Below are positions 1-63,278 of a DNA stretch of 64,000 nt, in pieces (position 1 is the stretch's first letter; every line of letters starts with the position of its first letter). A program made the translations under genes and the position numbers. The notes beneath the pieces are model-generated. The model worked only from the letters and a program-made list of their open reading frames with translations, had not been told where the DNA came from and did no database searches. Source of the stretch: Verrucomicrobiota bacterium (GTDB lineage Bacteria > Verrucomicrobiota > Verrucomicrobiia > Limisphaerales > J093); NCBI GenBank assembly GCA_022710935.1, contig JAKLFY010000018.1, positions 1 through 64,000 of the forward strand, given 5' to 3'.

Positions 1-186
1 GCGCTCCTGGTGAAGGAACTCCTCGAGTCGAGATCGGAACTCGAGTTTGTGCCCTATGATGTCGCGTACGCGCCCGGATTCGAGGACATGCGTCGTCGTC
101 GTCCCTCCGTCGACAAGCTGGAGCGGATGACGGGGTTTCGTCCATTGACACCGCTGGCGGAGATCATCCGGCGAACCGCCAGCTAA
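1..186 (+). CDS. NAD-dependent epimerase/dehydratase, C-terminal end (partial)
   Basis: Only the last 61 codons lie in the window; the frame is open from base 1. The tail reads PYDVAYAPGFEDM followed by RRPSVDKLERMTGFRP and LTPLAEIIR. This is the usual C-terminal end of extended short-chain dehydrogenases acting on nucleotide sugars (UDP-glucuronate decarboxylase or UDP-glucose epimerase type): a conserved GFEDM-RR segment, then a helix that picks the residue number for the next sugar-nucleotide. The NAD-binding Rossmann part is upstream of the window, so substrate cannot be decided. The stop codon TAA (184-186) is the first TAA of the inverted-repeat element that follows. Confidence 0.7.
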   Translation, partial: ALLVKELLESRSELEFVPYDVAYAPGFEDMRRRRPSVDKLERMTGFRPLTPLAEIIRRTAS

Positions 187-455
187 CCCGCACATTTCCT
201 GGCGCGGCAAAGCCGCGACCAGAATGTGTAACAACTGACGGCCTTTGCGGCATGACGCGTCTTTCAAAACGAAACGAACTGAAGAGAGAGTGGTACGCCC
301 CCCCAAGTGCACAAGGCGGTCAGACTTCGCTATACACAGTGTCAGAAGTTCCACCGCGTGAGGGCACGCGGCCTACAGGCTTGTAGGCCGGGTCCCCTGA
401 CCCGGCGCTGCATCATTGATGTTGCTCTCGATAAGAGGACTGCCATGCGGGTTAG
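183..455. repeat. Family B inverted-repeat element (B1), composite, interrupted by a family A copy
   Basis: Starts CTAACCCGCA and ends ATGCGGGTTAG, the inverted ends that define a dispersed family seen at eight full sites here (also 5993, 17168, 31183, 32524, 54364, 56381, 61983). The last part, GTGCACAAGGCGGTCAGACTT and GACTGCCATGCGGGTTAG, closely matches the 73-bp copy at 54364-54436, but here a family A element (329-433) lies between them. The left part also contains a strong extra hairpin, CACATTTCCTGG-CGCGGC / GCCGCG-ACCAGAATGTG, at 191-228. The left end supplies the stop codon of the preceding gene. No coding sequence is seen in 187-518. Confidence 0.6.
329..433 (+). repeat. Family A triple-hairpin repeat (A1)
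   Basis: Three adjacent hairpins: CCGCGTG-AGGG-CACGCGG (354-371), CCTACA-GGCT-TGTAGG, and CCGGGT-CCCCTG-ACCCGG ending near 406. The flanks match the copy at 62051-62158 (in reverse orientation) almost base for base, from CTATACACAG on the left to the GCTCT..ATA end on the right. That extends the unit to about 105 bp, well beyond the hairpin core. It lies inside family B copy B1. No transposase is linked to it; it behaves like a REP-type or MITE-type short repeat. Confidence 0.7.
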
Positions 456-5992: not shown

Positions 5993-6066
5993 CTAGCCCG
6001 CAGCGGTCCGCATTTTGGAGTTCTCGGCTTCGCCGTGGTCACAACTCCATGAAACATGCGGGCTAG
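5993..6066 (-). repeat. Family B inverted-repeat element (B2)
   Basis: 74 bp with perfect 10-bp ends CTAGCCCGCA / TGCGGGCTAG. Its reverse complement matches copy B5 (31183-31256) along the whole length: conserved GGAGTT/AACTCC stem and AAAATGCGGAC segment. The exception is the tip hairpin, which is CGGC-GAA-GCCG here and CCGC-CAT-GCGG there, that is, a change on both sides that keeps pairing. It lies 20 bp past the end of hisB. Confidence 0.8.
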
Positions 6067-10031: not shown

Positions 10032-10973
10032 ATGAGAATTCGCCGCGCAAATCACCTGGGCATGTGCTTCGGCGTCCGCAACGCCATCCGCCTCGCCCTC
10101 GATCAGGCACGCTCCCAGCCGCTGACTGTTCTTGGCGACCTGGTCCACAACGAAACCGTCCTGGCCCTGCTCCGAAGCCACGGCATTCGCACCGTCCGCC
10201 TCGGCGAACCCATCGCCACGTCCGCGGTGATGGTGACGGCGCACGGGGCCTCGAACCGGGCCAAGGCGGCGCTGCGGGCGCGCGGTCTGGACGTGATCGA
10301 GGCCACCTGCCCGCTGGTTCAGCACGCCCATCTCGCCATCGTGGCCCTGGCGCGCGCGGGGTATCATCCGGTCGTCGTGGGCCAGAGCGAACATGTCGAA
10401 GTGCGGGGTCTGACAGGCGATCTGGACGCATTCGACGTGATCCTGACCGACCAGGACGTGCGGCAGCTCCGCCCGCATCCGCGCTTCGGGGTCGCGGCCC
10501 AGACAACCCAGCCGAGCGATCATGTCCGGCATCTGGTGGGGCTCCTGCGCGAGCGGTTTCCGGAGTCGGAGGTGAAGTATGTGGACACCGTGTGCCGCGC
10601 AACCAAGGAGCGGCAGTGGGCGGCGGTTGAACTGGCGCAGGAGTGCGACGTCGTGGTGGTCGTCGGGGGCGCGCGCAGCAACAACACACGCCAGCTTGTG
10701 GCAACCTGCGCGCGGCACTGCGCCCGGGTCCACCACGTCGAATCGCCCGAGGGGGTGCGGCCCGAGTGGTTTCGAGTCGACGATACCGTCGGCCTCACGG
10801 CCGGGACGTCCACGCCCGACGATGTCATCGCCGGTGTCGACGCCCGGCTGCGGGCCGTCGCGCGGGTGGCCGATCCCGATCCAGGCCCGGACGCCCAAGC
10901 GGAGCTGCTGGCCGCGGCGGTTCCCTCGGGCGAAATCGAAAGGGCGCCCGCGTCCTGTCTTGCCGCGCACTAG
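10032..10973 (+). CDS. ispH: 4-hydroxy-3-methylbut-2-enyl diphosphate reductase
   Basis: 313 residues from the ATG at 10032 (MRIRRANHLGMCFGVRNAI). IspH/LytB is the last enzyme of the MEP isoprenoid pathway and binds a 4Fe-4S cluster. The three cluster cysteines are C12, C93 (EATCPLV) and C188 (VDTVCRATKERQ). Substrate-binding His39, His71 and His121 and the catalytic Glu123 (SEHVEV) are present, as is AAQTTQ. The C-terminal TAGTSTPDDVI fits the family. The stop TAG (10971-10973) lies in an 11-base CTAGCCCGCAT sequence identical to the end of family B repeats; hemH starts 9 bp later. Confidence 0.95.
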   Translation: MRIRRANHLGMCFGVRNAIRLALDQARSQPLTVLGDLVHNETVLALLRSHGIRTVRLGEPIATSAVMVTAHGASNRAKAALRARGLDVIEATCPLVQHAHLAIVALARAGYHPVVVGQSEHVEVRGLTGDLDAFDVILTDQDVRQLRPHPRFGVAAQTTQPSDHVRHLVGLLRERFPESEVKYVDTVCRATKERQWAAVELAQECDVVVVVGGARSNNTRQLVATCARHCARVHHVESPEGVRPEWFRVDDTVGLTAGTSTPDDVIAGVDARLRAVARVADPDPGPDAQAELLAAAVPSGEIERAPASCLAAH

Positions 10974-10980
10974 CCCGCAT
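10970..10980 (+). repeat. Solo end of a family B repeat at the ispH stop codon
   Basis: CTAGCCCGCAT is identical over 11 bases to the left end of copy B5 (31183). Only one end is seen; hemH begins two bases later at 10983. Its TAG is the ispH stop. It may be a decayed element or a chance match; 11 bases are specific enough to make decay more likely. Confidence 0.45.
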
Positions 10981-17167: not shown

Positions 17168-17239
17168 CTAGCCTGCATCTCTCACCGCTTTTTCCACCGC
17201 GAAGCCGGGGTTCTCAAGAGAAGTCAGCATGCAGGCTAG
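17168..17239. repeat. Family B inverted-repeat element (B7)
   Basis: 72 bp with perfect 11-bp ends CTAGCCTGCAT / ATGCAGGCTAG; a T/A pair replaces the usual C/G pair at both ends, so pairing is kept. The right end supplies the stop codon of tsf (CTA at 17236-17238 is TAG on the minus strand). The stretch 17008-17167 between the recombinase and this element has no gene. Confidence 0.8.
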
Positions 17240-18084
17240 GAAGCGAAGGCCTCGCCGACCTGGAATCGGACGAACCGGCGAATCGTGATTTCATCGTCGA
17301 GTTGCTTCGCCACGGTCGCCAGGTGCTCGCGCACCGTGATCTCGGAATTGCGTTTGACGAAGCCCTGATCGAGCAGGCAGGCCGTCTGGAAGAACTTCTC
17401 GAGTTTGCCCTCGATGATCTTGGCCAGGGCCGCAGGCGGCTTGTTCTTGAGCAGATCCGAGGCGGCGACGATCTCCTTCTCCTTCGCCACAATGGCGGGA
17501 TCCACCTGTTCGCGCGAGACGGCGGCCGGGCTGGCGGCGGCGATCTGCAGCGTGATATCCTTGACCAACTGCCGAAAGTCGTCGCGGGTCGTGGTGGCCT
17601 CGTTTCCGGCCCCGACCTCGACCAGCACGCCGACCTTGGCGCCGGTGTGGATGTACGCGGCCACCAGGCCGTTCCCCGAGACCTCGAACCGCTGATGCCG
17701 CGCGATCTTGATGTTCTCGCGGATGCGCGCGACGGCGTCCGTGCGCAGCGTCTCGAGATCCGCCGCCGGATTCTCGGCCAGCGCGCGCACCGCCTGATCG
17801 CAGAAGGCGCGGAACATTTCGTTCTTGGCGACGAAATCGCTCTCGCAATTCACTTCGAGCAGCACGCCCACGCGCGCGCCGGGAAGGATGCACTGGGCGA
17901 TGGCGCCCTCCCGAGCCTCGCGCTGCGCCTTCTTCGCCGCGGTGGCGACGCCCCGTTTGCGGAGCAAATCGACCGCGGCGGCGAGGTCACCATTTGTTTC
18001 CACCAGCGCTTTCTTGCAGTCCATCATGCCGGCGCTGGTCATTTCGCGCAGCTTGACAACCAGGGTTGCACTAATTTCAGCCAT
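17236..18084 (-). CDS. tsf: Translation elongation factor Ts
   Basis: 282 residues, normal for the family. EF-Ts recharges EF-Tu with GTP. The UBA-like N-terminus is clear: KLREMTSAGMMDCKKALVET, NGDLAAAVDLLRKRGVATAA (in the family TGAGMMDCKKAL). Two core repeats follow (GVLLEVNCESDFVAKNEMFR and VAAYIHTGAKVGVLVEVGAG), with the coiled-coil region after them, ending RFVRFQVGEAFAS. Second gene of the leftward rpsB-tsf operon, 90 bp after rpsB. Its stop is supplied by repeat B7. Confidence 0.97.
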   Translation of the reverse strand: MAEISATLVVKLREMTSAGMMDCKKALVETNGDLAAAVDLLRKRGVATAAKKAQREAREGAIAQCILPGARVGVLLEVNCESDFVAKNEMFRAFCDQAVRALAENPAADLETLRTDAVARIRENIKIARHQRFEVSGNGLVAAYIHTGAKVGVLVEVGAGNEATTTRDDFRQLVKDITLQIAAASPAAVSREQVDPAIVAKEKEIVAASDLLKNKPPAALAKIIEGKLEKFFQTACLLDQGFVKRNSEITVREHLATVAKQLDDEITIRRFVRFQVGEAFAS

Positions 18085-28994: not shown

Positions 28995-29654
28995 TCACGG
29001 CCACCAGCGGAGGCTGGGGTGATTGGTGCGGGCCTTGCCGCGCTCGAAATCCCAGTAGGCCGTGCACCGGTGACGCGCGACGTGGCCGTCCAGAAACAGA
29101 AACTGCGCCCCTGCGTTGTGCAGATTGGTCGGGACAAATGACCACCCCCCGACCGCCGGCAGGTTCTTCGTGTCGAACAGCCAGATGACGGCGGAGGGTT
29201 CGCCGATTGCGCCAAGCCGGACTGGACGCGCCTCGTCGCCGGTGCCGTTGACGTGTTCATTCAGACAGTAGTGGAAGAGATTGCGCCCGTTGCTGCGCCG
29301 CTTGTTGGCCGGACATGCCCAGACCGACTTGTCCGGAGCCGCCAGGGGATTTGTTCGCCAGGCCAGATCGTGATACCGGGGAAGACCCAATTGGGCGGGC
29401 AACTGGACGTACCATCCGACGTTCGTCGCCGTTGGGGCGGGGTTGGGGGAGCCGTCAGGCGGCAGATAGTCGTCGTGGTCCGCCGTGTAGAGCTGGGTGG
29501 CCAGACCCCATTGGCGCAGGTTGTTCACACACTCGATTGCCTGGACGCGGGACTTGGCCCGAACCAGGGCGGGCAGGAGCAGCGTCGCCAAAACCGCCAG
29601 AATGCCCGCCGCAACCAAAAGCTCGATCAACGTGAAGCCAGACCGTGTTCTCAT
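28995..29654 (-). CDS. Prepilin-type N-terminal domain, H-X9-DG protein
   Basis: 219 residues from the ATG at 29654, chosen because a perfect AGGAGG ribosome-binding site lies 8 bases upstream; an in-frame ATG at 29738 would put an unlikely leader before the pilin signal. [20 protein letters not shown] has the class III signal (cut after Gly6) with Glu at +5. The H-X9-DG motif is HNAGAQFLFLDG near the C-terminus. IECVNNLRQWGLATQLYTAD is family-typical. Single gene; like the one at 519-1277 it probably is an exported pseudopilin-like protein of unknown role. Confidence 0.9.
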   Translation of the reverse strand: MRTRSGFTLIELLVAAGILAVLATLLLPALVRAKSRVQAIECVNNLRQWGLATQLYTADHDDYLPPDGSPNPAPTATNVGWYVQLPAQLGLPRYHDLAWRTNPLAAPDKSVWACPANKRRSNGRNLFHYCLNEHVNGTGDEARPVRLGAIGEPSAVIWLFDTKNLPAVGGWSFVPTNLHNAGAQFLFLDGHVARHRCTAYWDFERGKARTNHPSLRWWP

Positions 29655-29773
29655 GGGACAACCTCCTCTCCTTGACGAGCGATAATGTACGCGTGCAACG
29701 CCGGGGCGCAAGGGATGTCCGCGGCGCCAATGCCGCATTGACCTGCGCCCACCCGATGCACACTATCCGCGCC

Positions 29774-31186
29774 ATGAATCAACCGCCGATCGCGCTGACA
29801 TCTCGCCGGGACTTTCTGAAGAACACGGGCCGTTTCGCGGCCGCATCCGCCTTGGCCGGCGTGGCCCTGCCGCACGTCCATCCGGCGGGCAGCGACACGA
29901 TTCAAGTCGCCTTGATCGGATGCGGCGGGCGCGGGACGGGGGCCGCGGCCAACGCCCTGGCGGTAAAGAACGGCTCGCTGAAGCTGGTGGCGATGGCGGA
30001 TGTCTTTGCCGCGCGTCTGGACGGCAGTTACCAGGCCCTGCGTCAGGCCGCCACCGCCCCGGTCGAGGGCGCGCCGGAGACCCGGGTCAGCGGTTTCGCG
30101 GCGTCCCAAATCGAAGTGCCGCCTGACCGGCGTTTTGTCGGGTTCGACGCCTACCAGAAAGCGATGGACTGCCTGAAGCCGGGCGACATCGCGATCCTCA
30201 CCACACCGGTGGCCTTTCGCGGGATCCATTTCGAGTACGCGATTGGCAAGGGGCTGCATGTGTTCATGGAGAAACCCATCACGACCGACGGCCCGACCAC
30301 GCGCCGGATGCTGGCGTTGGGCGAAGAGTCGGTGAAAAAGAACCTCAAGGTCGGCGTCGGGCTGATGTGCCGTCACTGCCAGGCCCGCTGGGAGTTGTAC
30401 AGGCGGATCAAAGAGGGCGAAATCGGCGACATCACAACCATGCGGACCTACCGGTTGGTTGCGCCGGCCGGTTTCACGGGGCCCAAGCCCGAGGGCATGA
30501 GCGAGGTCCTCTACCAGGTGCAGCGGTATCTCGGCTTCTTCTGGGCCAGCGGCGGTGTGTTCCACGACTACGTCGCCCACAATGTCGACGAATGCTGCTG
30601 GATGAAGGAGGCGTGGCCGGTTCAGGCCCAGGGCATGGGCGCCCGCCTCTACCGCGGGGATGCCGTGGACCAGAACTTCGACCACTACTCGATCGAGTAC
30701 ACGTTCGAGGATGGAACCAAGCTTTTCCTCCAGTCACGCTACATGCCCGGCTGCCACGAGGAATTCGCCAGTTACGCCCATGGCACCCGCGGCGCCGCCG
30801 TCATCTCGACGTTCGTCCACACCCCAGCCAAATGCCGGGTCTACAAGGGACACGCCATGACCCGCGAGAATCTGGCCTGGGCCTTCCCACAACCCGAGCC
30901 GGATCCCTACCAGCTCGAATGGGACCACCTGGTCGAGGCCATCCAACAGAACCAGCCGTTCAACGAAGTGAAACGCGGCGCCGAAGCCAGCCTGGTGGTC
31001 CTCATGGGCCGCCGCGCCGTTCACACCGGCCAGGTCGTCACCTTCGACGACATGCTCCAGTGCGACGAAGAGTTCGCGCCAGGCCTCGAACAGTTGACTG
31101 CCGATTCCCCCGCGCCGGTCCGGCCGGGGCCGGATGGCCTCTATCCGTCCCCCCAACCGGGCCTGAAGAAAACGCGCGAGTGCTAG
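29774..31186 (+). CDS. Gfo/Idh/MocA-family oxidoreductase, Tat-exported
   Basis: 470 residues from the ATG at 29774 (a start at 29756 is possible). A twin-arginine signal is seen at residues 10-16 (SRRDFLK) followed by RFAAASALAGVALP. The NAD(P)-binding strand is IQVALIGCGGRGTGAAANAL and the family EKP motif is HVFMEKPITTDGPTTRRML; a substrate-binding C-terminal domain with FHDYVAHNVDECCWMKEAWP follows. Exported members of this family are very common in Verrucomicrobiota and are thought to act on sugars or sugar derivatives with tightly held cofactor. Substrate unknown. The stop TAG (31184-31186) is part of repeat B5. Confidence 0.9.
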   Translation: MNQPPIALTSRRDFLKNTGRFAAASALAGVALPHVHPAGSDTIQVALIGCGGRGTGAAANALAVKNGSLKLVAMADVFAARLDGSYQALRQAATAPVEGAPETRVSGFAASQIEVPPDRRFVGFDAYQKAMDCLKPGDIAILTTPVAFRGIHFEYAIGKGLHVFMEKPITTDGPTTRRMLALGEESVKKNLKVGVGLMCRHCQARWELYRRIKEGEIGDITTMRTYRLVAPAGFTGPKPEGMSEVLYQVQRYLGFFWASGGVFHDYVAHNVDECCWMKEAWPVQAQGMGARLYRGDAVDQNFDHYSIEYTFEDGTKLFLQSRYMPGCHEEFASYAHGTRGAAVISTFVHTPAKCRVYKGHAMTRENLAWAFPQPEPDPYQLEWDHLVEAIQQNQPFNEVKRGAEASLVVLMGRRAVHTGQVVTFDDMLQCDEEFAPGLEQLTADSPAPVRPGPDGLYPSPQPGLKKTREC

Positions 31187-31256
31187 CCCGCATGTTTCAC
31201 GGAGTTGTGACCGCCGCCATGCGGAAAACTCCAAAATGCGGACTGCTGCGGGCTAG
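31183..31256 (+). repeat. Family B inverted-repeat element (B5)
   Basis: 74 bp with perfect 10-bp ends CTAGCCCGCA / TGCGGGCTAG, an inner GGAGTT/AACTCC stem and a tip hairpin CCGC-CAT-GCGG. Its first CTAG contains the TAG stop of the oxidoreductase gene. It is directly joined to family C copy C2. The pair is a second copy of the arrangement at 5877-6066. Confidence 0.85.
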
Positions 31257-31368
31257 CCGCAAAACCGCGCCGGGCCAAAAGGTCCTGAGGAGGGCAACAC
31301 TCGGGATGGAGAGGCTCCCCGATCGGTCGCGGCTTGCCTTCTGGAGCCCATCCAGGCGCGGTTTTGCC
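31257..31368 (+). repeat. Family C repeat (C2), joined to family B copy B5
   Basis: 112 bp bounded by GCAAAACCGCGCC (31259-31271) and its reverse complement GGCGCGGTTTTGC (31355-31367). Internal bases align loosely with the reverse complement of C1 (shared GCAACAC and GGAGGCTC-like blocks). It lies between B5 and the esterase gene at 31418 and may hold or affect that gene's promoter. Confidence 0.75.
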
Positions 31369-31417
31369 TGAGCGCCGGGTTTGACACTTCTGTCGAAGGG
31401 GCGTAAAGGACTCGGTC

Positions 31418-32527
31418 ATGAATTCCACCGCTCTGCTGGCGCCCCTGCTGCTTGCCGCCCTCACGCTCGATGCCGCCGAGACACCGGCGCCGCGTCCCCG
31501 CGCCATGCCCGTCGTGTCCCCCGAGTTGCAGTCGGGCCGGCGCGTGACATTCCGCCTTCAGGCGCCCAGAGCGGAGGAGGTTGTCGTCACGGGCCAGTGG
31601 CCCGACGGGCGGGTGCCGATGACGAAGGACGCGGAGGGTGTCTGGACCGCCGCGATCGGCCCGATCGACGCCGGGGTGTGGGAATACAGCTTCCAGGTCG
31701 ACGGGTTGGCGATGATCGACCCTGGGAATCCAGCCATCAAACCGATGCGTCAGCCCCGCACCAGCATTCTGCATCTGCCCGGCGATCCCCCGCTCCTCCA
31801 CGATTTCAGGGATGTTCCCCACGGCGCGCTGCATCAGCACACGTATGTCTCGAAGACCCTGGGCCGCCCGCGCTCGATGGTCGTCTACACGCCGCCCGGA
31901 TACGGTCTCGAGCCCGATCGGCGGTACCCGGTCCTCTACCTCCAGCACGGGATGGGAGACAGCGAAGCCACCTGGACGGTCCACGGCAAGGCGCATTGGA
32001 TCCTCGACAACCTGATCGCTCAAGGCCGCGCCCAACCCATGGCGATCGTGATGCTCGATGGGCACGCCGCAATCGGAGGCCCGACGGCATTCGGCGGCAA
32101 CTCGGCCGCCTTCGAGCTCGATCTGATCGACGATGCCATGCCCTTCGTCGAGGCCAACTACCGCGTCGCCGCGGAGGCAACATCCCGCGCGATTGTCGGC
32201 CTGAGCATGGGAGGTGAGCAGGCCCTCCGCATCGGGCTCACACACCCCGATCGTTTCGCCTGGATCGGCGGGTTCAGCGCCGCCACGCCGATGCGCGACG
32301 CCGTGAAATCCGCGCTCGACAATGCCGCGTCCATCAATGCGCAACTGAAGCTCCTCTGGATTGCGTGCGGCAGGGACGATTTTCTGCTCAAGCGCAACGA
32401 GGACTTCATCGCCGTGCTCAAGGAGAAGGAGATCCGACACGAATGGCTGCTGACCGAAGGGAACCATAGCTGGCCGGTCTGGCGAGGGTACCTGGGCCAG
32501 ATCGCCTCGCGACTCTTCCAGCCCTAA
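31418..32527 (+). CDS. Exported esterase, CBM48-like domain plus esterase D fold
   Basis: 369 residues. A signal peptide (MNSTALLAPLLLAALTLDAA) is followed by an Ig-like CBM48/E-set domain (about 35-125, with VTFRLQAPRAEEVVVTGQWP and GVWEYSFQVDG). The alpha/beta-hydrolase domain carries RPRSMVVYTPPGYGLEPDRR, the nucleophile S263 in GLSMGG, the acid near D320-D321 (CGRDDF) and H350 (GNHSWP). This architecture matches bacterial feruloyl/acetyl xylan esterase-like proteins (XynZ-type), which clip ester side groups from plant polysaccharides; the exact substrate is inferred. The TAA stop is inside repeat B6. Confidence 0.88.
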   Translation: MNSTALLAPLLLAALTLDAAETPAPRPRAMPVVSPELQSGRRVTFRLQAPRAEEVVVTGQWPDGRVPMTKDAEGVWTAAIGPIDAGVWEYSFQVDGLAMIDPGNPAIKPMRQPRTSILHLPGDPPLLHDFRDVPHGALHQHTYVSKTLGRPRSMVVYTPPGYGLEPDRRYPVLYLQHGMGDSEATWTVHGKAHWILDNLIAQGRAQPMAIVMLDGHAAIGGPTAFGGNSAAFELDLIDDAMPFVEANYRVAAEATSRAIVGLSMGGEQALRIGLTHPDRFAWIGGFSAATPMRDAVKSALDNAASINAQLKLLWIACGRDDFLLKRNEDFIAVLKEKEIRHEWLLTEGNHSWPVWRGYLGQIASRLFQP

Positions 32528-32595
32528 CCCGGAAATCTCACCAGTAGGGCGGTCCCGGCATTCCTGACGGTCCGTGGGTGAGAAATGCGGGCTAA
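32524..32595. repeat. Family B inverted-repeat element (B6) serving two convergent genes
   Basis: 72 bp. The left end CTAACCCGGA holds the TAA stop of the esterase (32525-32527); the right end, TTAGCCCGCA on the minus strand, holds the TAG stop of the LolA-like gene (32592-32594). Ends are imperfectly paired (CTAACCCG / CGGGCTAA), with a second arm TCTCACC / GGTGAGA. It fills the entire gap between the two convergent genes. Confidence 0.8.
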
Positions 32596-33365
32596 CGATC
32601 CTCGATCTCGAGATCGAACTCGATCCGCGTCCGGGCGTCTGTCTCTTCGTTGCGAATCTCCATCGACTTCAATTGCCAGCGGCCCTGGACCTTCTTGAAG
32701 CTGCCGATCGAGAACTCCTTCAGGAGCCGGCGCTCCCGATCGTACCCCTCGGCACGGAGAATGCCCCGATGCTCGATGTCGATCCACGACAGCACGCGCG
32801 CGTAGTTGGTTGAACTCGGGTTTGGATTCAGACTCTCGAGGACTTTGCAGGATCGTCCCTTGCGCATCTCGCTCCGCACCACCCGCTGCCCCGGCCAATC
32901 GAGAAACTCGAGCCCCAAATCTGACAGCCAAAACTCGGACCCCGCGAACGGAATAGACGCCGCGTCGCCGGTCAAAGTGACCGCATCCGAGGCGCCCACG
33001 GCCGTCCCGAGCGCGCGCGAGTGGTCGTAGCGCGTCGGCGCCCCCTCCGCACGGGTCACAGTCAGAGTTTCGATCGGCTCCTGGCCGGGCCCCAAGGCCA
33101 AATACCGGGTCTGCCAGTACTCGGCGCGGGGCGTGATCTCCAGACGCACGGGAATCGCCTCCCGCCATTTGCCGTAAGGATCCCGGGTCCGCAGAACGCC
33201 GCCGCTGCTGAGCGGCTCTTCCGGGCGTTGACTCCGCAGTTCAGCCGCCAACAGCCGGCCCTCGGCCTCCGCGGGCGTCTGTTCCGCGGACAACGCAAGG
33301 CCTGGGACGAACGCGATCGCGATCGCGAGAGCCAGGCGAGCCTGGAGGATGATACGCGGTTTCAT
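32592..33365 (-). CDS. Outer-membrane lipoprotein-sorting protein (LolA-like)
   Basis: 257 residues. A signal peptide (MKPRIILQARLALAIAIAF, cut after ALSA) is followed by a beta-rich domain with VTLTGDAASIPFAGSEFWLS and DLGLEFLDWPGQRVVRSEMR, the pattern of the LolA-like/'outer membrane lipoprotein-sorting protein' group (PF17131). These proteins are related to the LolA/LolB half-barrel that carries lipids or lipoproteins in the periplasm. The specific cargo is unknown. The start overlaps the lon stop (ATGA at 33362-33365), so lon and this gene are probably co-transcribed. Confidence 0.8.
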   Translation of the reverse strand: MKPRIILQARLALAIAIAFVPGLALSAEQTPAEAEGRLLAAELRSQRPEEPLSSGGVLRTRDPYGKWREAIPVRLEITPRAEYWQTRYLALGPGQEPIETLTVTRAEGAPTRYDHSRALGTAVGASDAVTLTGDAASIPFAGSEFWLSDLGLEFLDWPGQRVVRSEMRKGRSCKVLESLNPNPSSTNYARVLSWIDIEHRGILRAEGYDRERRLLKEFSIGSFKKVQGRWQLKSMEIRNEETDARTRIEFDLEIEDR

Positions 33366-39066: not shown

Positions 39067-39110
39067 GTGCTGCAGTGCGTCTGGAGGTTGTCGGCGGGAA
39101 TCGAGTTTGC

Positions 39111-39206
39111 GCCGCGTGGGGGCAACGCGGCCTACAGCGGGAGTCTCCATCCGTTGTAGGCCCGGTGCCCTCACCGGGCGACAGAACACCAACAACAACC
39201 AGATGC
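39111..39206 (+). repeat. Family A repeat (A3)
   Basis: About 96 bp: GCCGCGTGGGGGCAACGCGGC hairpin remnant, CCTACAGCGG ... CCGTTGTAGG, then CCCGGTGCCCTCACCGGG, and a tail AACAACAACCAGATGC. It is the reverse complement of the copy at 49498-49594 with few differences. Compared with A1, the last stem has CCCGGTG/CACCGGG in place of CCGGGT/ACCCGG, so pairing is kept by changes on both sides. Confidence 0.7.
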
Positions 39207-49497: not shown

Positions 49498-49636
49498 GCA
49501 TCTGGTTGTTGCGGGTGTTCTGTCTCCCAGTGAGGGCACCGGGCCTACAACGGACCGAGACTCCTGGTGTAGGCCGCGTGCCCCCACGCGGCGCAAGGAC
49601 AGACATCGGTGCGGACGCCGGGTCAGGCGACCCGGC
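49498..49636 (-). repeat. Family A repeat (A4) plus an extra hairpin
   Basis: 49498-49594 is the reverse complement of A3 (39111-39206), sharing GCATCTGGTTGTTG, the TGAGGGCACCGGGCCTACAA segment and the GCCGCGTG/CACGCGGC hairpin. It is followed at 49617-49636 by a perfect hairpin GCCGGGTC-AGGC-GACCCGGC, like the last hairpin of A1 and A5. It lies between der and the CPBP protease gene; 49432-49689 has no gene. Confidence 0.7.
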
Positions 49637-53458: not shown

Positions 53459-53581
53459 TCTGACACCCGCATGTGTTCGTTGCGGCGCCGCCAATAGGTA
53501 GGCACTCGCCACGCAGATTCAATGAATTTCTGTCGGCCTTGTGCAATGTCCCGGCTCGAGCCATCTTCGCCCTCGACGAAA

Positions 53582-54367
53582 ATGACCATGCCTCTCAGCG
53601 ACGAGGAAATGCGCCGGTACGCGCGGCATCTGATCCTGCCGGAGATCGGTTTGGCCGGGCAGCACAAGCTGCGCGCGGGGAGCGTCTTGTGCGTCGGCGC
53701 CGGCGGGCTCGGGTCGCCCGTCGCGCTGTACCTGGCAGCGGCCGGCATTGGACGGCTGGGGATTGTGGATGCCGACGTTGTGGATTGTTCGAATCTCCAG
53801 CGCCAAATCCTGCACGGGACCGGCGATTTGGGCCGGGCCAAGACCGACTCGGCCGCCAACGCCTTGCGGCGTCTGAATCCGCACGTGGATGTCGTGCTCC
53901 ACGCGGTTCGACTGACGCGGGACAACGCGCCGCACTTGCTGGAGGGGTGGGACGTGGTCGTGGGAGCCACCGACAATCTCGACGCGCGGTACTGGATCAA
54001 CGAGGCCGCCGTGCGGCTTGGGAAACCGAATGTTTACGGCGCGATCGGACGATTCGACGGACAGGCCAGCGTGTTCGCCCCGCATCGGCGCGGGCCGTGC
54101 TATCGCTGTCTGTACCCCGAACCGTCCGCGCCGGGACATGAGTCGGAGGCGGCATCCAACGGAGTCCTGGGAGTGGTGCCTGGGATCGTCGGTTGCATCC
54201 AGGCAACCGAGGCTCTCAAGTGGATTCTCGGCATCGGATCTTCGCTGCTCGGACGGCTGTTGGTCCTCAACGCCCTCGAGATGCGGTTCCGCGAAGTCCA
54301 GATCCGTCGCGACCCGGCGTGTCCGGTCTGCGGCAAGCGCCCTGCCAGCGATGAGACGGCCGGCTAA
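53582..54367 (+). CDS. ThiF/MoeB/HesA-family adenylyltransferase
   Basis: 261 residues from the ATG at 53582 (MTMPLSDEEMRRYARHLILP). The ATP-binding loop is VLCVGAGGLGSPVALYLAAA, and the Arg-finger region is NLQRQILHGTGDLGRAKTDS. DNLDARYWINEA and two zinc-knuckle pairs (CYRC and CPVC) complete the E1-like fold. This group activates the C-terminal glycine of ThiS/MoaD-type sulfur carriers for thiamine, molybdopterin or thiolated compounds. No rhodanese domain is fused (MoeB rather than MoeZ type). Its TAA stop is in repeat B3. Confidence 0.93.
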   Translation: MTMPLSDEEMRRYARHLILPEIGLAGQHKLRAGSVLCVGAGGLGSPVALYLAAAGIGRLGIVDADVVDCSNLQRQILHGTGDLGRAKTDSAANALRRLNPHVDVVLHAVRLTRDNAPHLLEGWDVVVGATDNLDARYWINEAAVRLGKPNVYGAIGRFDGQASVFAPHRRGPCYRCLYPEPSAPGHESEAASNGVLGVVPGIVGCIQATEALKWILGIGSSLLGRLLVLNALEMRFREVQIRRDPACPVCGKRPASDETAG

Positions 54368-54436
54368 CCCGCATATTGACACACCGTCAGTGCACAGGCC
54401 GGTCAGACCTCGCAGGAAGACTGCTATGCGGGTTAG
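54364..54436. repeat. Family B inverted-repeat element (B3)
   Basis: 73 bp with perfect 11-bp ends CTAACCCGCAT / ATGCGGGTTAG. The left CTAA holds the stop codon of the ThiF-family gene (54365-54367). The right half matches the right part of B1 (183-455) but lacks the family A insert there, so it looks like an empty site. Confidence 0.85.
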
Positions 54437-56380: not shown

Positions 56381-56452
56381 CTAGCGCGCATTTCTCACCA
56401 GGTTTTGGACGGCGCGAAGCCGATGTCATCGAAAGCGGTAGCCAGGCGCTAG
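56381..56452. repeat. Family B inverted-repeat element (B4)
   Basis: 72 bp with ends CTAGCGC / GCGCTAG. It matches the first part of B8 (61983 on): CTAGCGCGCATTTC, then GCCGATGTCATCGAAAG against GCCGCTGTCATCGAAAG. It truncates the pseudogene 56127-56380. Confidence 0.75.
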
Positions 56453-61982: not shown

Positions 61983-62054
61983 CTAGCGCGCATTTCACAC
62001 CAACTTCTGAAGAACGCGGAGCCGCTGTCATCGAAAGGTGCACTGATGCGCGCT
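61983..62054. repeat. Family B inverted-repeat element (B8)
   Basis: Starts CTAGCGCGCATTTCAC and ends GATGCGCGCTA, where the first bases of the family A copy A2 begin. Matches B4 over GTCATCGAAAG and the flanking bases. About 72 bp. Confidence 0.65.
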
Positions 62055-62158
62055 ATACAGAGCGACATAAATGATGCAGCGCCGGGTCAGGGGACCCGGC
62101 CTACAAACCTGTAGGCCGCGTGCCCTCACGCGGCGGAACTTCTGACGCTGTGTATAGC
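62051..62158 (-). repeat. Family A triple-hairpin repeat (A2)
   Basis: Reverse-complement copy of A1: CGCTATACAGAGCGACAT at the left end and TGTATAGC at the right end form terminal inverted repeats (GCTATACA). The three hairpins GCCGGGTCAGGGGACCCGGC, CCTACAAACCTGTAGG and CCGCGTG..CACGCGG lie inside. It touches B8, as A1 lies inside B1. Confidence 0.75.
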
Positions 62159-62975: not shown

Positions 62976-63102
62976 CCGTGCCCGAACCGTGCCCGTCAGA
63001 GGCCCGGGCCTTGCCCGCCCACCCGGCGAGCCCAAGGTCCGGGCCTTCTGACTCAGCCGAATCGCCGGGCACTCTCACGCCAACTCTTAGTGAACTGTCC
63101 TT

Positions 63103-63173
63103 GCGCCGCGTAGGGGCACGCGGCCTACAACACCGATGTCTGCCCCTTGTTGGCCGGGTCCCCTGACCCGGCG
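63103..63173 (+). repeat. Family A repeat (A5)
   Basis: GCCGCGTAGGGGCACGCGGC, then CCTACAACACCGATG, then TTGGCCGGGTCCCCTGACCC ending GGCG. It contains the first and last hairpins of A1 with a different middle. 62976-63278 has no gene other than this repeat. Confidence 0.65.
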
Positions 63174-63278
63174 TTCACCCTGGTGACCTTTTGATCCTGC
63201 TGCGCGAGGATTCGGGCACCTTCACTTTTCGCGCACTGAACGCTCGCTTTCCCAAAGGCGGCATCGGATCATCTGCCC

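Follow-up and report, generated by a model that had tools for sequence, protein, structure and literature searches.

Two families of short, gene-free repeats, A and B, repeatedly meet in the genome studied here, and we think it probable that they are separate MITE families, B being derived from the IS1380 family and A being targeted to CTAG, with the nesting of A in B as the consequence. What could be read directly from the DNA was the nesting itself, the terminal sequences, the enrichment of A at B, the target words of A, and the ends common to B and an IS1380-family IS. The window, i.e., the whole stretch analyzed, is 64,000 nucleotides long (bases 1-64000 of contig C90) and belongs to a host genome of 7.52 Mb in 259 contigs. 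Detailed counts draw on roughly 1.57 Mb from the host and 0.77 Mb from the sister genome, and the host genome is a draft that probably lacks multi-copy ISs. The features that bear on the nesting are the following.

183-455, plus strand: B1, a B-III element whose 11-bp terminal inverted repeats differ at one position; A interrupts it, and its left part holds an extra segment.
331-433, plus strand: the A element inside B1 (TATACACAG...CTCGATA), 103 bp, with a hairpin-rich interior.
193-302 (approximate boundaries), plus strand: segment C, ~110 bp of additional sequence in B1's left half.
184-186, plus strand: the TAA stop codon of the gene upstream of B1, formed by the terminal CTAA of B1.
54364-54436, plus strand: B3, an uninterrupted B-III copy whose CTAA gives the TAA stop codon of ORF 53522-54367.
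61983-62055, plus strand: B8, a B-I element with A inserted into its right terminal CTAG, the final G of which is at 62157.
62054-62156, minus strand: the A element in the terminal CTAG of B8 (C-TA-[A]-TA-G).

B1 starts with CTAACCCGCAC and finishes with ATGCGGGTTAG, and its matches to B-III lie at 306-332 and 433-455. The right half of B1 matches B3 block by block: the blocks GTGCAC..GGTCAGAC and GACTGC.ATGCGGGTTAG, which adjoin without interruption in B3, have A (331-433) between them in B1. The original prediction that an A element is nested in B at 183-455 was therefore right, coordinates included, a 103-bp A splitting B1. The empty site that it proposed at 54364-54436 is indeed an uninterrupted B copy, but one that is paralogous, at another locus, and not allelic. 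The contig begins 182 bp before B1, and neither an allelic empty site for A nor a B1 orthologue free of A was found. With A removed, B1 would measure about 168-170 bp instead of 73 bp; the difference comes from the extra segment in its left half (about 193-302), which is also present in B-type elements at C192, C243, C224, and C113 and, with no B right end beside it, at C24 and C112. The gene upstream of B1 has a frame open from base 1 and a C terminus that, read by eye, is epimerase-like.

The second A copy had been described as running straight on from B8 at 61983-62158, and this too proved to be so: A begins in the last CTA of B8, and the G that completes CTAG lies just past A (62157). The A element of B1 and this inverted copy (62054-62158) are 93% identical over 105 nt.

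Near-complete A copies are 103 bp long and have the form TATACASAGCG...CGCTSTGTATA, the good copies being bordered by TATACA...TGTATA, so that terminal inverted repeats bring TA to both ends. The flanks are YTAR in 19 of the 21 near-complete copies and CTAG in 13 of them. On these flanks and borders, A is most likely a second MITE, inserting at the TA within YTAR with a preference for CTAG, and its insertion would duplicate the TA. The core of A is hairpin rich and is also found alone and in tandem arrays. A hairpin-rich repeat (GCGCCGCGTGNGGGCACGCGGCCTACA...GCCGGGTCCCCTGACCCGGCG) at 39104-39206, 49498-49605, and 63095-63175 of the window has the A core without A ends, and the same repeat forms tandem arrays at C1, C112, and C83. 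No match between A ends and transposases was found in the sampled 1.6 Mb or at the Y1 and DDE_3 loci. Another genome, G096, holds nine A-like end words, four of them near contig starts; on its contigs C58, C72, C247, and C680, an A-like end (TATACACAGCGACATAA) lies within about 130-150 bp of the contig start, the pattern expected of a multi-copy IS.

Family B has a consensus of about 74 bp with the ends CTARCSCGCAT...ATGCGSGYTAG, and it shows the features of MITEs, being short, multicopy, bounded by terminal inverted repeats, and free of genes. Two patterns together matched 56 places in the host genome (35 plus 21), the elements there being 71-77 bp long with perfect 10- to 11-bp inverted ends, and none in the reversed control; the pattern is therefore not due to chance. 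Genome wide there are 214 B left-end words (≤1 mismatch), at least five interior types have the B ends in common, and folding gives a closed hairpin stem. The window contains these further copies.

5993-6066, minus strand: B-II element with perfect 10-bp terminal inverted repeats.
17168-17239, plus strand: B-I-like element whose right CTAG is the stop codon of the minus-strand ORF 17236-18084.
31183-31256, plus strand: B-II element between the convergent ORFs 29645-31186 (plus) and 31253-32467 (minus), both of which end in its terminal CTAGs.
32524-32595, plus strand: B-IV element whose right end is the stop codon of the minus-strand ORF 32592-33365.
56381-56452, plus strand: B-I element of 72 bp with a degraded right end.

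Two other observations in the window concern B. A lone B left end (CTAGCCCGCAT) occupies 10970-10980, two bases 5' of the ATG (10983) of an ORF, and a further inverted-repeat element with the ends GCAAAACCGCGCC and GGCGCGGTTTTGC follows directly after element B5 at approximately 31259-31366, its end word adjoining many A and B copies.

Outside the host, the same-genus genome G001 has six copies with CTAG ends, the rest of the family has few, and elsewhere in the order there are elements with different interiors; the named relatives L280 and L284 carry the same elements as the host. Judged from these relatives and from its genes as read by eye, the host seems to be a Verrucomicrobiota MAG. The 18-mer B end word CTAGCCCGCATRTTTCAC was found in more than 109 stretches from many phyla, with its inverted partner 73-388 bp away in most of the stretches that had enough sequence. 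Copies of the CTAG..CTAG kind have flanks that fit either a 2-bp or a 4-bp duplication, and those of the CTAA..TTAG and TTAG..CTAA kinds fit TA only. We found no clean orthologous empty site for B.

In Burkholderiales bacterium PBB3 (L286), the inverted partner of CTAGCCCGCATRTTTCAC lies 1620 bp away, and the intervening DNA is an IS encoding a 441-amino-acid protein that matches the IS1380 transposase model NF033539 with 405 bits (cutoff, 180) and PF13701 with 552 bits. Thus, the ends of B match those of an autonomous IS with an IS1380 transposase. Nearer to home, B-type ends lay on the expected side of six of seven IS1380-type (PF13701) fragments from the host and four relatives (G000, G001, G009, G011, and G041); such words occur about 104 times per Mb, and the chance of one beside a fragment is about 0.02 per case. 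By contrast, B-type ends are absent from three PF13701 genes of full length in the related genomes (L368, L369, and L373), which may represent another branch. The host has only one IS1380-type fragment and yielded no active transposase for either family, and in the sampled host DNA no autonomous element was flanked by A or B ends. Where insertion scars of IS1380 members are known, the duplications are longer (5 bp for IS1247; PMC3281130), and a TA duplication suits the B-III copies (CTAA...TTAG) better than a 4-bp one. Because the terminal ~18 bp are common to the MITEs, the L286 IS, and the IS1380 fragments, an IS1380-type MITE is the best reading of B, a link drawn from one intact IS in a distant bacterium and from fragments near home. 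B would then be a nonautonomous derivative of IS1380-family ISs, moved in trans by their transposase.

Two other sources of mobility have to be weighed against this one. The first is that A and B are both MITEs of the IS630/Tc1-mariner type, which would suit their common occurrence at YTAR, flanks that fit a TA duplication, and the preference of IS630 for TA in 5'-CTAG-3' announced in the title of Tenzen and Ohtsubo 1991 (via PMC2170065). However, the genome has only two decayed DDE_3 fragments, neither with A- or B-type ends, and for B the link to IS1380 is direct; we therefore regard a common IS630-type origin as unlikely. For B it was rejected on the two decayed fragments and their nonmatching ends, and for A it may hold. 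The second is that B is a REP or REPIN mobilized by a RAYT (an IS200-like Y1 transposase) and not an IS1380 MITE. GTAG-type REPs elsewhere also give flanking genes TAG stop codons (PMC3733652), and the host has 12 Y1_Tnp matches (L074-L085), but the ends of B are CTAG palindromes and not a single unpaired GTAG, a B copy lies near only one of the 12 Y1 loci (L081), none of the 12 is bounded by A or B ends, and ends identical to those of B bound an IS1380-family IS. Having neither the GTAG-type tag nor the Y1 association, B was not assigned to RAYTs, and we give such an origin little credence.

With genes called simply as longest frames, B termini are the exact stop codon of a gene in 27 of 70 full copies (30 ends in 1.28 Mb), and every other offset was seen four times at most. 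A three-frame test agreed, the stop frame being open in 56 cases in the host versus 17 and 27 for the other frames, and in 44 cases in other phyla versus 14 and 15; CTAG words outside B gave no such excess. Among CTAGs outside both B and gene interiors, 34 of 88 (39%) lie at stop codons, the same share as for B elements. Since this share is reached with or without B, active recognition of stop codons by B is not needed, and CTAG targeting combined with selection against gene disruption suffices.

Alternatively, B might be kept because it provides functional gene 3' ends, as terminators or mRNA hairpins, with A tolerated there. The stop-codon coincidence in 27 of 70 copies and the closed hairpin stem are what such a role would lead one to look for, but B copies lie between 30 tandem, 16 convergent, and 12 divergent gene pairs, near the background of 315, 129, and 133 and with no clear 3' bias. 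Furthermore, orthologous stop codons in the sister genome carry other repeats or none, which implies that no particular B is conserved, and we consider a functional role very unlikely. This comparison with G001 (about 92% identical) covered about 119 kb of alignment and a handful of loci. Gene ends are kept up to the stop codon, and the neighboring element differs: the host has B-II at the 31183 locus where G001 has another repeat, B-IV at the 32524 locus where G001 has B-III plus another repeat, and B-I at the L020 locus where G001 has an unrelated repeat, and at the B3 locus G001 has none. At L017/L180 and L020/L195, other repeats (TTAGCGAGGCTTCGC..., TTAGGGTCTGTGCAAAA...) sit on the same stop codons in the sister genome. 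Replacement by recombination and independent insertion cannot be told apart as causes of these differences.

These properties of A and B bear on why the two families meet. Eleven of the 21 near-complete A copies touch or sit in B (0-2 bp), although B accounts for about 0.5% of the DNA (0.45% of 1.19 Mb), and the claim that A inserts into B structures is upheld on this count. Discounting a pair at C201 that resembles a segmental duplication leaves 10 of 20; the binomial P value for A-B contact, 3e-19, was computed on 12 of 31 rows that include weaker and some double-counted copies. CTAG is rare in this genome, with 208 occurrences versus 3908 expected from base composition in the 1.19 Mb (a 19-fold depletion), and 37 of these are at B, each B copy supplying two. 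The likely reason for the association is thus that A prefers CTAG and the ends of B are CTAG. B supplies 18% of all CTAG and 52% of A copies touch B, an excess that may arise because non-B CTAGs often lie in genes (96 of 184 are inside gene calls). Most of the association, we concluded, can be put down to a preference for CTAG and to genes not tolerating insertions. In a genome poor in CTAG, B copies would each bring two such words into insertion-tolerant sites, and A would land on the ends of B, and sometimes inside it, far above expectation; we infer this order of events at the shared CTAG ends.

A composite mobile unit made of A and B, or A traveling with B, could explain why about half of the A copies touch B, but this reading is already largely refuted and highly improbable, since A is found within B-III and at either end of B-I and B-II elements (at least three subfamilies), 10 of 21 A copies have no B neighbor, and most B copies lack A. 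The suggestion that A moves together with B is thus not supported, and the outcome named in advance as refuting an association, most A copies lying away from B, was not observed either.

For two separate families meeting at CTAG, a broader picture can be drawn, which we offer tentatively and as less than probable. IS1380-type MITEs with near-identical 18-bp ends in many phyla might normally land on stop-codon CTAGs and re-create CTAG at both ends, with stacking as the result, and in sister species one family might take the place of another at a given stop codon. Our preferred reading of A and B, for its part, would give MITE-in-MITE nesting in a bacterium a mechanical reason, in that elements re-creating a rare target word attract others, would tie abundant cross-phylum short repeats to the IS1380 family, and would explain the coincidence of their ends with stop codons. 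This would matter for the annotation of gene ends and for the turnover of intergenic DNA.

In the literature consulted, mostly non-subscription and so weak evidence of absence, we found no report of IS1380-type MITEs with these ends and nothing on bacterial MITEs that nest by way of a re-created CTAG. A known kind of MITE has TA at its borders and is mobilized by the transposase of a related IS, as exemplified by RUP of Streptococcus pneumoniae, attributed to IS630-Spn1 (PMC2229807). Like the elements studied here, RUPs are gene-free repeats of about 100 bp with terminal inverted repeats and TA insertion, and they often lie within other mobile elements; they differ in their ends and in that the mobilizer indicated for B is of the IS1380 type. 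GTAG REPs and REPINs (PMC3733652) resemble B in that they are short, number in the hundreds, and often give their neighbors a TAG stop codon through their ends, but B carries CTAG at either end, its inverted repeats are common to a DDE transposon, and no RAYT gene was found associated with it. A single IS that takes its own stop codon from its TA target is reported, ISPsp10 (PMC4133298). Close to B, too, are the IS1380 ISs themselves (NF033539, PF13701), among which the 1620-bp IS of L286 has the terminal CTAGCCCGCATATTTCAC of B; B differs from them in being about 74 bp long, in carrying no transposase gene, and in a duplication that may be TA and not 4-5 bp.
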